Below are positions 26,117-36,139 of a stretch of DNA of 64,000 nt, piece after piece (position 1 is the stretch's first letter; each line of letters starts with the position of its first letter). A program made the translations under genes and the position numbers. The stretch is from Catenuloplanes indicus (GTDB lineage: Bacteria; Actinomycetota; Actinomycetes; Mycobacteriales; Micromonosporaceae): NCBI RefSeq assembly GCF_030813715.1, contig NZ_JAUSUZ010000001.1, forward strand, positions 248,001 through 312,000. The letters run 5' to 3'. Below the pieces are notes generated by a model. It searched no databases. It saw only the letters and a program-made list of their open reading frames with translations, and was not told the origin of the DNA.

Positions 26117-26913
26117 CGCTCCACCCGCACGTCCGCGAACATCGCCATCTCGTCCGCGAGCTCGCGGCGGGCCTGCGGGGCGAGGTCACCGACGATCTCC
26201 CGGGCGATCTGCCGCCCGCGTGCGGACTCCGGCGGCACGCCGTCGGCGAGCGCGCCACCGGCCTTCTCCTGCACCGCGGTGAAGTCGTACGCCGCGGTCA
26301 GCCGCTCCTGCGCGCCCGCCCCGGCCAGCGCCATCTCGCGGGTGCGGGCCCGGAAGTCCGGGTCGCTGACCAGCTCGGCCAGCTCCACCCACGCGTCGAC
26401 CTGCGCGGGCGTCGGATCGTCCGGCAGGCTCAGCTGCCGCATGCCCGCGGCGATGCCGTAGCCCGGGCTCTCCGGGTGCACGCCGCCGAACGTGGCGTCC
26501 ACGTACTCGTCGATCAGTTCCTGCCGCTCCCGCGCAGACAGCTGTGCCAGCTTGTGCATCAGTCTCATCTCCTCCGCCGTACCGTTCCTGGCCGCGACCG
26601 ACGCGAGCACCGCGCGCCGCACGCGCAGCAGCTGGATCTCCGCGTCCAGCGCCCGCACGTGCGCGGCCGCCACGTCCGCGACGGTCCGCTGCCGGGCCAG
26701 CACCTGCTGCACCACGTCCAGGCCGAGGCCCAGCTCACGCAGCGTGCGCACCAGCTCCAGCCGCGCCACCGCAGCGGCGTCGTAGAGCCGGTAGCCACCG
26801 GCGGACCGCCCGGTCGGCGGCAGCAGATCGCTGTCCGACCAGAACCGGATGGTGCGCACCGGCAGCCCGGTCCGCCGGGCCAGTTGCCCGATCGTGTAGA
26901 GCTCGTCGGTCAC
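26017..26913 (-). CDS. MerR-family transcriptional regulator with large effector domain
   Basis: 298 residues from GTG at 26913 (ATG 26958 is an alternative). HTH YTIGQLARRTGLPVRTIRFW and wing GRSAGGYRLYD are classic MerR. The dimer coiled coil and a C-terminal domain of about 190 residues follow. No cysteine cluster, so an organic-ligand or protein-sensing type. Convergent overlap of 100 bp with the EamA gene. Confidence 0.88.
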   Translation of the reverse strand: MTDELYTIGQLARRTGLPVRTIRFWSDSDLLPPTGRSAGGYRLYDAAAVARLELVRTLRELGLGLDVVQQVLARQRTVADVAAAHVRALDAEIQLLRVRRAVLASVAARNGTAEEMRLMHKLAQLSARERQELIDEYVDATFGGVHPESPGYGIAAGMRQLSLPDDPTPAQVDAWVELAELVSDPDFRARTREMALAGAGAQERLTAAYDFTAVQEKAGGALADGVPPESARGRQIAREIVGDLAPQARRELADEMAMFADVRVERYWALLGTINGWEPFTPKVPAFLWLIDALRAGS

Positions 26914-30765: not shown

Positions 30766-31752
30766 GTGGCATGGTTTCTGATCGTGGAGATCGGCACCGT
30801 CATCCCCGCCGCCCGCCGCGCGATCGAGACCGCCGGTGGCGCGGCCGACTTCACCGACGCGTGGCTGGCCAACCGGCGGCTGTCCGCGCACACCCGCGCG
30901 GCCTACAAGCGCGACATCACCAGCTGGCTCGCCTGGTGCGACGGACGAGGTCTGTCTCCGCTGGCGGCCACGTTCCTGCACGTCAACGCCTACGCACGGG
31001 AGCTGGAGACCACGCTCGCCGCGACCACCGTCGCCCGCAAACTGTCCGCCATGTCCAGCTGGTACGACTTCCTGCACCGCCTCGACGCCGTCCCCGGCAA
31101 CCCGGTCTCCGGCGCCGACCGCCCGCACGTCGACCGGGACCACTCCGGCACCGTCGGCCTCACCCCGGCCGAGGTCGACGCGCTCCTCGCCGCCGCCGAC
31201 GCCGCCACCGGACCGACCGCCGACCGCACCCGCGCGGTCATCGCACTCCTCGCCGACCTCGGCCTGCGCGTCGGCGAACTCTGCGGCCTCGACGTCACCG
31301 ACCTCGGCTACGAACGCGGCCACCGCGCGATCCGCTTCACCGGCAAGGGCGGCAAAGCCAGACGACGAGCCCTCACCCCGGGAACGTCCGCCGCCGTCGA
31401 CGCCTACCTGCACGCCCGCGCCACCGCCGCCGGCGTCGCGGTCGCCGACCTCGCCGGCCCGCTGCTGGTCACCGCCCGCGGCGGACGACTCGACCGGCAC
31501 GCCGTATTCCGCCTGGTCCGGCAGCTCGCCCGGGAAGCCGGCATCCCCGCCTGGCAACAGCTGTCCCCGCACTCGCTGCGGCACGCGTTCGCGACCACGG
31601 CGCGCGCCGAGGGCGTACCGCTGGAGGACGTCCAGGACGCGATGGGCCACGCCGACCCACGCACCACCCGCCGCTACGACCGCGACCGCCACAACCTCGA
31701 CCGCGACCCGGCCTACGCCATCTGGGCCGCCCGCGCCCGCCGCCGCGGCTGA
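30766..31752 (+). CDS. Tyrosine recombinase / integrase
   Basis: 328 residues from GTG at 30766 (GTG 30784 also possible). N-terminal SAM-like core-binding domain (SAHTRAAYKRDITSWLAWCD) and a catalytic domain with the full set: R in LADLGLRVGELCGL, K in TGKGGKARRRAL, H-x-x-R in SPHSLRHAFATTARAEG, H in DAMGHADPRTTRRY, and the nucleophilic Y at the end of that segment. Size is Xer-like. Lies 4.8 kb from a candidate dif site, in a row with a second recombinase. Confidence 0.9.
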   Translation: MAWFLIVEIGTVIPAARRAIETAGGAADFTDAWLANRRLSAHTRAAYKRDITSWLAWCDGRGLSPLAATFLHVNAYARELETTLAATTVARKLSAMSSWYDFLHRLDAVPGNPVSGADRPHVDRDHSGTVGLTPAEVDALLAAADAATGPTADRTRAVIALLADLGLRVGELCGLDVTDLGYERGHRAIRFTGKGGKARRRALTPGTSAAVDAYLHARATAAGVAVADLAGPLLVTARGGRLDRHAVFRLVRQLAREAGIPAWQQLSPHSLRHAFATTARAEGVPLEDVQDAMGHADPRTTRRYDRDRHNLDRDPAYAIWAARARRRG

Positions 31753-34062: not shown

Positions 34063-35100
34063 CTACCCCGCATCACCGACGGCCAGGCGGGCGAGCGCGC
34101 GATTCGTCCGGTTCGCCTTGATCGCGGCGCGTTGCTGGCCGGCGGTCACGTCGATGTAGTTCTGGCTCGTGGTCAGCGTGGCGTGGCCGAGCAAACGCAT
34201 GATCTCGGACGCGCTGGCACCGTCCTCGGCCAGCCGGGTCGCGAACGTGTGCCGCAGCGCGTGCAGCTGCGCACCGGCCGGGACCCGGTCGACGATCCCG
34301 GCCCGGCGGTAGCAGGACTCCACCAGATACTGCAGGCCGCCGCGGCGCAGGGGAGCGGAGAACCGGTCGACCAGCAGCGCCGACTCCCGCGACACCGTAC
34401 GCGCGCCGAAACGGTGACGCCGGGACTCCAGGTAGCGCTCGATCAGCGCGTCCAGCTCCGGCTCGATCGGCACCGACCGCGGGCGCCCGCCCTTGCCGAG
34501 CACCTCCACCCGGCGCTCACCGTCCCGGCCGACGACCGAACCGACGCGCAGGTCCAGCAGCTCGGCCAGACGCAGGCCGGCACACAACGCCAGCGCCAGC
34601 ACGACCAGGTCGCGCTCCGGCCACGGGTGCCGCTGCCGGCCGTCCGATGCCTCGGCGACCGCCTCCAGCAGCTTCTCCGGGGTCTCCTCGCCACGCAACG
34701 GCTTCGGCGTGGGCGTCGGCACCCGCGGCTTGTCCACCGCGGACATCGGGTTGCCCGGCACCCGCCCGTCCGCGACCAGGAACGCGAAGAAACTGTTCCA
34801 CGTCGACCAGGCCCGGTACACCGACGCGGCGGCGCGGGGCGCGGCGAAGTGGGCGAACGCGGCGCGCAGCGACCGCGCGGTGACGGCCGAGATCGGCAGC
34901 GTGGCCAGGGGGAGGGGAGCGGCACCACCGGGAGTCAGGTCACCGTCGGCGAGCAGCCGGGCGATCGAGGTCAGATCACGCCGGTAGGCAGCGAGCGTGT
35001 GCGCCGACGGCTTCCGGATCGCCCGCGCCGCCAGGAACTCGTCGATCAGCACGATGAGCTTTTCGTCACTTTCACCCGTTACGTCCGGTATGTGCTGCAT
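34063..35100 (-). CDS. Tyrosine recombinase (XerC/D-like)
   Basis: 345 residues from the ATG at 35100. Core-binding domain (SAHTLAAYRRDLTSIARLL), then the catalytic residues: R in ALCAGLRLAELLDL, K in LGKGGRPRSVPI, H-x-x-R in LHALRHTFATRLAEDG, H in LLGHATLTTSQNYIDV and Y in that same segment. All are intact. The start codon lies inside a near-perfect palindromic dif-like sequence, and a better dif candidate is 470 bp upstream. It could be a Xer recombinase or an integrase of a Xer-exploiting element. Confidence 0.9.
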   Translation of the reverse strand: MQHIPDVTGESDEKLIVLIDEFLAARAIRKPSAHTLAAYRRDLTSIARLLADGDLTPGGAAPLPLATLPISAVTARSLRAAFAHFAAPRAAASVYRAWSTWNSFFAFLVADGRVPGNPMSAVDKPRVPTPTPKPLRGEETPEKLLEAVAEASDGRQRHPWPERDLVVLALALCAGLRLAELLDLRVGSVVGRDGERRVEVLGKGGRPRSVPIEPELDALIERYLESRRHRFGARTVSRESALLVDRFSAPLRRGGLQYLVESCYRRAGIVDRVPAGAQLHALRHTFATRLAEDGASASEIMRLLGHATLTTSQNYIDVTAGQQRAAIKANRTNRALARLAVGDAG

Positions 35101-35119
35101 AAGGAATATTATGCAGCAA
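35092..35119. other. Palindromic dif-like site over the recombinase start
   Basis: Arms TGCTGCATAA (35093-35102) and TTATGCAGCA (35109-35118), exact reverse complements, separated by a 6-base centre GGAATA. The 11-6-11 layout with ATAA/TTAT inner ends is that of Xer recombination sites. It overlaps the ATG (35098-35100) of the adjacent recombinase and sits in an unusually AT-rich block (about 35098-35152). An operator or promoter role is the alternative. Confidence 0.5.
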
Positions 35120-35152: not shown

Positions 35153-35566
35153 ACGGCCGGACACGGTCACCACGAGCTTTGAGACCGGCGGCACGGAGGC
35201 CGGATTACGGCGGCACGCACACCGGCATCCCGCGACGGGCGCGGATGGCCGGGCCCCGCCGGGCGGGGCAGAGGACGGCCCGTGATCATCACTGCGCTCG
35301 TCCGGCTGCCGGCGTCGCCGCCTCAGTCCCGCCGCGTCCCGATGCCGCGCTCGTCCTGGAACATGAACGGTTGCCACAGTCCCGGCGCGCGTTCGTCGTA
35401 GTACGAAGACCTCCCGTCCGGCACGTGCGCTTCGCCGCGGCGCCCACCCGTCGCGCTACCGCGCCGGCGGGGCGCCGCCACCCGTACCGTTGAATGATCT
35501 TCTGGTTTTGGGTCCTCGGGGTTTCCGGCCGCTTTCGGGGAGCGCTCCGCCCGCCCAGGGCGCACT
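35153..35566. other. Gene-poor region beside the candidate dif site
   Basis: About 410 bp without a recognised gene. On the minus strand 35323-35424 reads as a 33-codon stretch with coding-like third positions (VPDGRSSYYDERAPGLWQPF...), possibly a gene remnant. GGAGCGCTCC (35539-35548) is a 10-bp palindrome. Nothing else supported. Confidence 0.4.
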
Positions 35567-35594
35567 AGTTGACATAATGTGCATTATCGAACCT
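35567..35594 (-). other. dif: Candidate chromosomal dif site (replication terminus)
   Basis: Read on the minus strand: XerC-type arm AGGTTCGATAA, centre TGCACA, XerD-type arm TTATGTCAACT. The XerD arm matches the B. subtilis arm TTATGTAAACT at 10 of 11 positions and the E. coli arm TTATGTTAAAT at 9 of 11; the centre matches E. coli TGTATA at 4 of 6. Layout (11+6+11) is exact. Two Xer-like recombinase genes lie to its left. It lies in an intergenic region about 93 bp upstream of the SRPBCC gene. Confidence 0.7.
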
Positions 35595-35612
35595 TAGCGG
35601 GGGAGTCGAGAA

Positions 35613-35627
35613 GCAACATTTGGTTGC
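35613..35627. promoter_or_regulatory. Operator 1 of the SRPBCC-ArsR operon
   Basis: GCAAC-ATTTG-GTTGC. Same arms and spacing as the copy at 35658-35672, 45 bp away; both precede the SRPBCC start at 35687. Probably bound by the ArsR-type regulator encoded second in the operon. Confidence 0.6.
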
Positions 35628-35657
35628 GCGTTCCCTGCCACCCGGCTACCGTGAAGC

Positions 35658-35672
35658 GCAACCGAACGTTGC
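35658..35672. promoter_or_regulatory. Operator 2 of the SRPBCC-ArsR operon
   Basis: GCAAC-CGAAC-GTTGC (extends one further base pair on each side, C...G), ending 14 bp before the ATG. Confidence 0.6.
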
Positions 35673-35686
35673 GAAAGGCGGCGACC

Positions 35687-36139
35687 ATGGAACACGGCAC
35701 GATCGAACGGCAGATGCACATCGAGGCGAGCCCGGAGAACGTCTTCGAGGTGCTCAGCAACCCCGCACACCTGCGGGAATGGTGGCCCGACGAGGCCGAC
35801 TTCCCCGGCCGGCCCGGCGGCGACGGCTGGATCAGCTTCGGCGACCCGGCCGCCGGGGGCAAGCGTGAGCGTTTCACCGTCGTCGATGTCGTGCGCCCGC
35901 GCACGTTCTCCTTCCGGTGGAACCACGCCGACGGCGTCACGGCCGCGCCGGGCAACTCCTACCTGGTGGTGTTCGAGCTGGAGCCGGTCGACGGCGGCAC
36001 GCTGCTGCGGATGACCGAGTCCGGTTTCCGGGAGCGTGGCTGGGACGCCGCGACCGTGGCAGCCGCGCACGCGGATCACGTGCGCGGCTGGGACCTGTTC
36101 CTCCCCCGCCTGCCGATCGCCGCGGCGAAACTGCCGTGA
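35687..36139 (+). CDS. SRPBCC/AHSA1-family protein
   Basis: 150 residues from the ATG at 35687 (GAAAGG upstream). IERQMHIEASPENVFEVLSN, HLREWWPDEADF, FTVVDVVRPRTFSFRWNHAD and GTLLRMTESGFRERGWD are typical of AHSA1-like helix-grip proteins that bind hydrophobic ligands. Co-translated (GTGA) with an ArsR-type regulator, a very common pair. Ligand unknown. Confidence 0.88.
   Translation: MEHGTIERQMHIEASPENVFEVLSNPAHLREWWPDEADFPGRPGGDGWISFGDPAAGGKRERFTVVDVVRPRTFSFRWNHADGVTAAPGNSYLVVFELEPVDGGTLLRMTESGFRERGWDAATVAAAHADHVRGWDLFLPRLPIAAAKLP

Follow-up and report, generated by a model that had tools for sequence, protein, structure and literature searches.

The chromosome terminus of Catenuloplanes indicus may be served by two site-specific recombination systems: a complete XerCD/dif system and, 447 bp from dif, a palindrome (PAL) that overlaps the start codon of a third Xer-type tyrosine recombinase (Xer3). 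The sites and this gene lie in a window of 64,000 bp (C1:248001-312000), in which positions are counted from the first letter. We consider it reasonably probable that Xer3 and PAL form a resolution module of plasmid type that stands beside XerCD/dif; binding of Xer3 to PAL, recombination there and the biological occasion for it are predicted.

The dif site is located at 35567-35594 on the minus strand and reads AGGTTCGATAA-TGCACA-TTATGTCAACT, i.e., XerC arm, centre and XerD arm in an 11-6-11 layout of 28 bp. Re-reading the window returned the sequence and layout that a sequence-only reading had claimed. The resemblance of the XerD arm to known sites was also found again, with one mismatch in 11 positions to the arm that we take to be that of B. 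subtilis and two in 11 to the presumed E. coli arm. Ten of the 28 positions are G or C, in a window with an overall G+C content of 72.7%. The site is very probably intergenic, as had been proposed, since it is flanked by the recombinase gene at 34063-35100 and by an AHSA1-type gene with a likely ATG at 35690; a mechanical open reading frame (35579-36139) overlaps it. When the window was scored with what we assume to be the actinobacterial dif consensus, the site matched at 23 of 28 positions and the next best place at 18 of 28. Comparison with a proposed actinobacterial site showed that a 21-bp core, CGATAATGCACATTATGTCAA, is identical to the core of the dif suggested for Frankia alni (CACGCCGATAATGCACATTATGTCAAGT; Kono et al., 2011, PMC3025954). 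As far as the accessible part of that paper gives the Frankia site, the present dif departs from it at the five outermost positions of the XerC arm and at one position of the XerD arm. The core occurred at one place in the C. indicus genome (9,247,015 bp in two contigs) at up to three mismatches, with no match for the reversed-pattern control, and the expected uniqueness was thus borne out. The assignment of 35567-35594 as the chromosomal dif of this Catenuloplanes-like actinobacterium is supported, with recombination activity as a predicted property.

A dif match with up to three mismatches was present in 197 of 250 genomes of the family, two of which (G031 and G049) had two matches; the reversed control gave one match each in four of the 250. 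Genomes of the genera g11, g16 and g39 in the table had no dif match, except for G108 of g16 (three mismatches). These genera perhaps have linear chromosomes or use another system.

The suggestion that the window contains the replication terminus agrees with the position of dnaA. A profile search of the genome placed dnaA at C1:4,923,382, with two weaker PF00308 matches elsewhere. The contig C1 is 9,184,948 bp long, and the separation of dif and dnaA therefore amounts to 0.4948 of the chromosome. The corresponding value was 0.467-0.4985 in all 42 single-contig family genomes with a listed dif place (lengths rounded to 0.1 Mb), and 0.472 and 0.479 in two genomes of another order. In 19 sampled stretches of 20 kb, the chromosome arms could be told apart by AT skew (p = 0.008) but not by GC skew (p = 0.30). 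The cumulative A-T minimum inside the window lies at 26,589, away from dif, and nothing strong was found among strand-biased hexamers in the window. A dif of a plasmid or secondary replicon was ruled out, as the window is part of the 9.18-Mb contig that carries dnaA. An arm of a linear chromosome was rejected as well: the two terminal 20-kb stretches of C1 have no 25-mers in common, direct or inverted, and the half-circle relation of dif and dnaA in the 42 relatives also counters it. The ends of C1 do not overlap, and the evidence for circularity is thus indirect.

Two Xer-like genes had been noted close to dif, and tyrosine-recombinase genes are indeed present at 34063-35100 (Xer3) and 30766-31752 (Xer4). 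In the profile search, both scored far under the NCBIfam cut-offs for XerC and XerD, and the canonical proteins are encoded elsewhere, which rules out that the two neighbors of dif are XerC and XerD. The canonical XerD gene is at 7.76 Mb, beside ald- and parA-like genes (named by eye), and its product scored 331.2 bits (cut-off 329.6). XerC, encoded at 6.33 Mb of C1, scored 284.6 bits, below the cut-off of 335.15, perhaps due to a long insertion. In this XerC (L006:1459-3201, minus strand; C1 near 6.33 Mb in G000), the two domains are separated by an insertion of about 255 residues that contains T-D-A-G repeats; it is shorter in G192 (about 38 residues) and G249 (about 72) and absent in G105. 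A search for XerC/XerD-like genes in ten genomes gave two each (218-318 bits) in all eight with dif. The two dif-less genomes, G072 (genus g16) and G070 (genus g11), had a single weak gene each (146 and 121 bits), neither of XerC/XerD grade. The XerC model cut-off of 335 was reached in none of the ten.

Xer3 (34063-35100, minus strand) is a protein of 345 residues, whose ATG lies inside PAL; the mechanical open reading frame runs to 35148. It scored 159 bits with the XerC profile (cut-off 335), 138 bits with that of XerD (cut-off 330) and 68.9 bits with the XerS model NF003462 (cut-off 267). A tree of 30 rows, in which Xer3 and Xer4 were flagged by the program for their long branches, had separate groups for Xer3 (91/100), Xer4 (98/100), XerC (100/99) and XerD (100/99). 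Xer3 is assigned to a third Xer clade, neither XerC nor XerD. Residues R177, K203, H280, R283, H306 and Y315, whose catalytic roles we presume from the familiar motif, were the same in all 19 aligned rows. The same R, K, H, R, H and Y were kept in 80/80, 30/30, 27/27 and 10/10 re-read loci, sets that overlap in species. The AlphaFold model of Xer3, built with 14 sequences, had a mean pLDDT of 70 and a pTM of 0.47, and its fold matches, at a TM-score of about 0.3, included XerA, lambda integrase, XerH, XerD and Cre. The model confirms membership of the superfamily and nothing finer.

At E ≤ 1e-40, Xer3 was present in 167 of the 250 family genomes, with one match each among the matches listed. 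It was missing at this threshold in the other 83, at least 20 of which have a listed dif, and the Xer3-PAL module is therefore dispensable. Among the best 80 loci of named genomes, Catenuloplanes japonicus came first (90%), followed by Planosporangium, Micromonospora, Actinoplanes and others. First-pass matches showed an internal stop in many Actinoplanes-like Xer3s, where the query began upstream of the ATG. After re-reading 147 loci from the ATG, stops appeared in only seven, at query positions 340-343, which is the natural end of the protein.

PAL (35092-35119) is a near-perfect palindrome with the same 11-6-11 layout, reading TTGCTGCATAA-TATTCC-TTATGCAGCAC on the minus strand. Ten of its 11 arm pairs are complementary, and the core ATAA-N6-TTAT is as in Xer sites. 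It is the presumed site of Xer3. No other TAA-N6-TTA palindrome with at least 9/11 pairs was found in the window and 400 kb of other stretches of the same genome. In five members of the genus, PAL was the sole place with the exact pattern CTGCATAA-N6-TTATGCAG; allowing two to three mismatches gave 5-7 further places per genome (control, 0-5). In an alignment of the genus from dif to Xer3, both sites and the gene stand out from a poorly conserved spacer. Within this spacer, another conserved block (35482-35515, GGACCCAAAACCAGAAGATCATTCAACGGTACGG on the minus strand), located between dif and PAL, was seen in the five genus genomes. A telomere resolvase site was ruled out, as the six-base centre of PAL is not palindromic.

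Over the family, 143 of the 250 genomes contained exactly one copy of TGCATAA-N6-TTATGCA, and none contained its reversed control. PAL and Xer3 occurred together in 140 genomes, Xer3 only in 27, PAL only in three and neither in 80. In all three genomes with PAL only, the contig ends inside Xer3. Ten of the 27 genomes with Xer3 and no exact PAL were fetched. Four of these (G092, G195, G205 and G241) have a variant in the usual position, and four (G052, G071, G064 and G043) have a different, less perfect palindrome (7-8/11). G236 (L305) has a weak palindrome (7/11) and an Xer3 gene matched in two reading frames, with dif intact, which makes it possible that gene and palindrome are decaying together. 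In G220, dif is at a contig end and the PAL position is unreadable. No PAL was seen within about 7 kb of dif in the four Xer3-less genomes fetched. Covariation of the arms was not significant in the family (8.885 pairs over 52 distinct sites versus 8.759 in shuffled sets; 719 of 5000 shuffles reached the observed value), and the palindrome therefore rests on conservation and on recurrence in distant groups.

In some Actinoplanes and Paractinoplanes loci (L160, L162, L166, L181, L191 and L216; G195 and G241), the XerC arm of dif has drifted to CGAGAA or CGTTAA. The genomes with a drifted arm also have an imperfect PAL, possibly a correlated change in one clade.

Linkage between dif and Xer3 was consistent. 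Places for both were listed in 118 family genomes, and in all of these Xer3 was on the same contig and strand as dif, 236-5369 bp downstream (median 555). Since the genomes are related, this and the other genome counts are not counts of independent events. Among the 80 named loci, whose genomes probably overlap the 250, 78 have a dif with up to three mismatches that lies 5' to Xer3 and shares its strand, and the other two have a site with four mismatches in the usual position. Eight other window genes (AHSA1, ArsR, GH10, PP2C and others) were each present in 1-3 of these 80 loci. Genus g40 (G064 and G043) has Xer3 on the other side of dif and on the opposite strand. In G012, the gene and PAL stay together at a distance of 5.4 kb from dif, and proximity of the module to dif is therefore not absolute.

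These data bear on the explanation that the terminus has an ordinary dif only, with Xer3 as a domesticated or relic integrase and PAL as its attachment site, both located there by chance. Such an origin has some appeal, as tyrosine recombinases are common in mobile elements, terminus regions tolerate insertions, and 28 of the 33 mycobacterial plasmid records with an Xer3 relative are typed mobilizable. The preserved catalytic residues in every locus examined, the single Xer3 match per genome among those listed and the linkage retained while neighbors turn over make it distinctly unlikely. Phage records also gave no Xer3 relative at 1e-15. Furthermore, each of the 143 genomes with PAL has exactly one copy, and therefore none shows an element flanked by two.

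Xer4 (30766-31752, plus strand), the other Xer-like tyrosine recombinase gene of the window, was set apart by its profile scores, the tree and its conservation in the terminus region of the family. It was found in 190 of 250 family genomes at E ≤ 1e-60, including Xer3-less ones such as G088 and G105. In 93 of the 106 genomes for which both places were taken in, Xer4 shared a contig with dif, at a distance of at most 66 kb (median 25 kb) and transcribed towards dif in 91 of the 93; in the remaining 13 it was on other contigs. It was present in nine of the 80 named loci, one of these being only 39% identical. The linkage of Xer4 to the terminus could be explained by ordinary shared gene order. 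Most of 30 loci had no palindromic site beside Xer4, and by eye none recurred across genera.

Outside the family, Xer3 was detected (E ≤ 1e-40) in 33 of 394 class-wide genomes: three in family f1, three in f2, one in f3 and 26 in f19. Families f2 (41-44% identity) and f3 belong to the same order as Catenuloplanes and f19 to another. We fetched 20 non-family regions, 19 from f19 and one from f3. A palindrome with at least 9/11 pairs was present in 19 of them, the remaining region having 8/11 in its shorter locus, and dif was found with up to four mismatches in 15. The gap between dif and PAL in these 15 was 283-951 bp (283 in f3, 300-951 in f19). In 13 of the 15, the distance between PAL and the Xer3 start ranged from 103 to 5,015 bp; in the other two, PAL was beyond the gene. 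In f19, where palindromes were picked by palindromicity, PAL adjoins various genes, e.g., it lies upstream of a phosphoketolase-like gene (genes predicted by script, names by eye). In five of the 20 regions, dif was not found within about 9-10 kb; their Xer3s were the most divergent (50.6-53.8%), and four of the five keep a palindrome, 113-7448 bp before Xer3.

The position of PAL relative to the gene is relevant for the idea that it is an operator, at which Xer3 or another protein controls xer3 transcription and no recombination takes place. PAL contains the ATG in the genus and the family, and in the C. indicus genome a CATAAT hexamer stands 7 nt 5' of this ATG. An operator would also fit the four of five plasmid loci in which 2-19 bp separate the end of the palindrome from the annotated start of the recombinase, and the five of 19 non-family regions with PAL 103-431 bp before the gene. 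On the other hand, PAL is 1.8-7.4 kb before Xer3 in 12 of these 19 and beyond it in two, and other predicted genes intervene in the inspected regions. PAL stays near dif where dif was found, and its layout is that of an Xer core site. We therefore regard a purely regulatory PAL as rather unlikely; operator and recombination roles are not exclusive.

Relatives of Xer3 were found on 33 mycobacterial plasmid records, with 38.6-40.4% identity in the best 15 of the 33. All five plasmid loci that were fetched carry a TAA-N6-TTA palindrome upstream of the recombinase, picked by palindromicity, with 9-10/11 pairs (expected, 0-0.005 per locus), and none of the five has a dif-like site. Plasmid pMK12478 has this palindrome once in its 145 kb, between a parA and a parB gene. 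Since the plasmid pair occurs without dif and in a maintenance setting, a resolution module is favored over an operator or an accessory of dif.

The last of these possibilities supposes that Xer3 binds PAL to build or regulate the dif synapse of XerCD and does not itself resolve dimers. In its favor, the plasmid Xer sites cer and psi have accessory sites nearby, PAL in f19 follows dif and not the gene, and G072 and G070, which lack dif and XerCD, have no Xer3 match. An accessory function is nevertheless unlikely, given that the mycobacterial pairs stand without a dif-like site, that the spacing and side of PAL relative to dif vary, and that the catalytic residues are conserved.

In the preferred explanation, a resolution module beside XerCD/dif, XerC and XerD would resolve chromosome dimers at dif, at the terminus; the identity of dif is shown by its sequence, uniqueness, position and co-occurrence with XerCD. 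Xer3 alone would most likely bind both near-identical PAL half-sites, as Cre does on loxP or XerH on difH, and recombine the copies of PAL carried by sister chromosomes that are dimeric or linked. A common ancestry of the module and plasmid resolution systems, such as those of the mycobacterial plasmids, is probable. The module may resolve chromosomes as a second system or at a particular stage, or it may help XerCD, and we propose that it lies beside dif because sister termini are brought together there at septation. More tentatively, two parallel terminus systems, XerCD/dif and Xer3/palindrome, may operate in many Micromonosporaceae and in one family from another order, mostly within about 1 kb of each other. 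The second might serve a special mode of division, e.g., the multi-septum division of sporulation.

If so, Xer3/PAL offers a genetically testable handle on why a chromosome keeps two systems. It also bears on the exchange of parts between plasmid resolution modules and chromosomes, and possibly on chromosome separation in sporulating mycelial bacteria. PAL also provides a second terminus marker where dif has drifted.

Several known systems resemble the arrangement found here. Cre/loxP, which serves plasmid resolution, shares a single recombinase, symmetric half-sites and a site beside the gene, but loxP has a 13-8-13 layout, whereas PAL has the 11-6-11 Xer layout and is chromosomal and next to dif. 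The mycobacterial plasmid recombinases share the gene-site pair, on one plasmid in the par region. IMEXs, which are flanked by two dif copies and use the host recombinases, share the location at dif; here there is no second dif, the genome having one copy only, and the module encodes a recombinase of its own, whose catalytic residues are intact, which rules out an IMEX at dif. The dif site itself shows no difference from XerCD/dif as described in the accessible parts of PMC3025954 and of Carnoy and Roten (2009, PMC2731167): it is a 28-bp 11-6-11 site with a conserved XerD arm and low G+C, non-coding, unique and opposite the origin, in a genome with XerC and XerD. The third recombinase and second site are extra. 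XerS/difSL and XerH/difH likewise have a recombinase gene near a palindromic terminus site (PMC5357621, PMC2731167, as far as accessible). According to the accessible text of these papers and PMC9765430, XerS/difSL, XerH/difH and XerL replace XerCD, whereas here XerC, XerD and dif all remain. The present case thus has the linkage of gene and site at the terminus that marks single-recombinase Xer systems, with PAL as the putative Xer3 site, but XerCD is present and Xer3 is not a member of XerS. Among the best matches of a literature search, which had subscription papers and preprints outside its scope, we found no description of a dif-linked third Xer or a PAL palindrome, which is weak evidence of absence. 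The finding of dif alone is ordinary and expected, and the Xer3-PAL companion can be viewed as a variant of known Xer systems with a predicted function. In the usual picture, as given in the accessible part of a review (PMC5357621), a chromosome has one system, either XerCD/dif or a single recombinase instead; a complete XerCD/dif that coexists with a third Xer and a nearby palindromic site departs from it.
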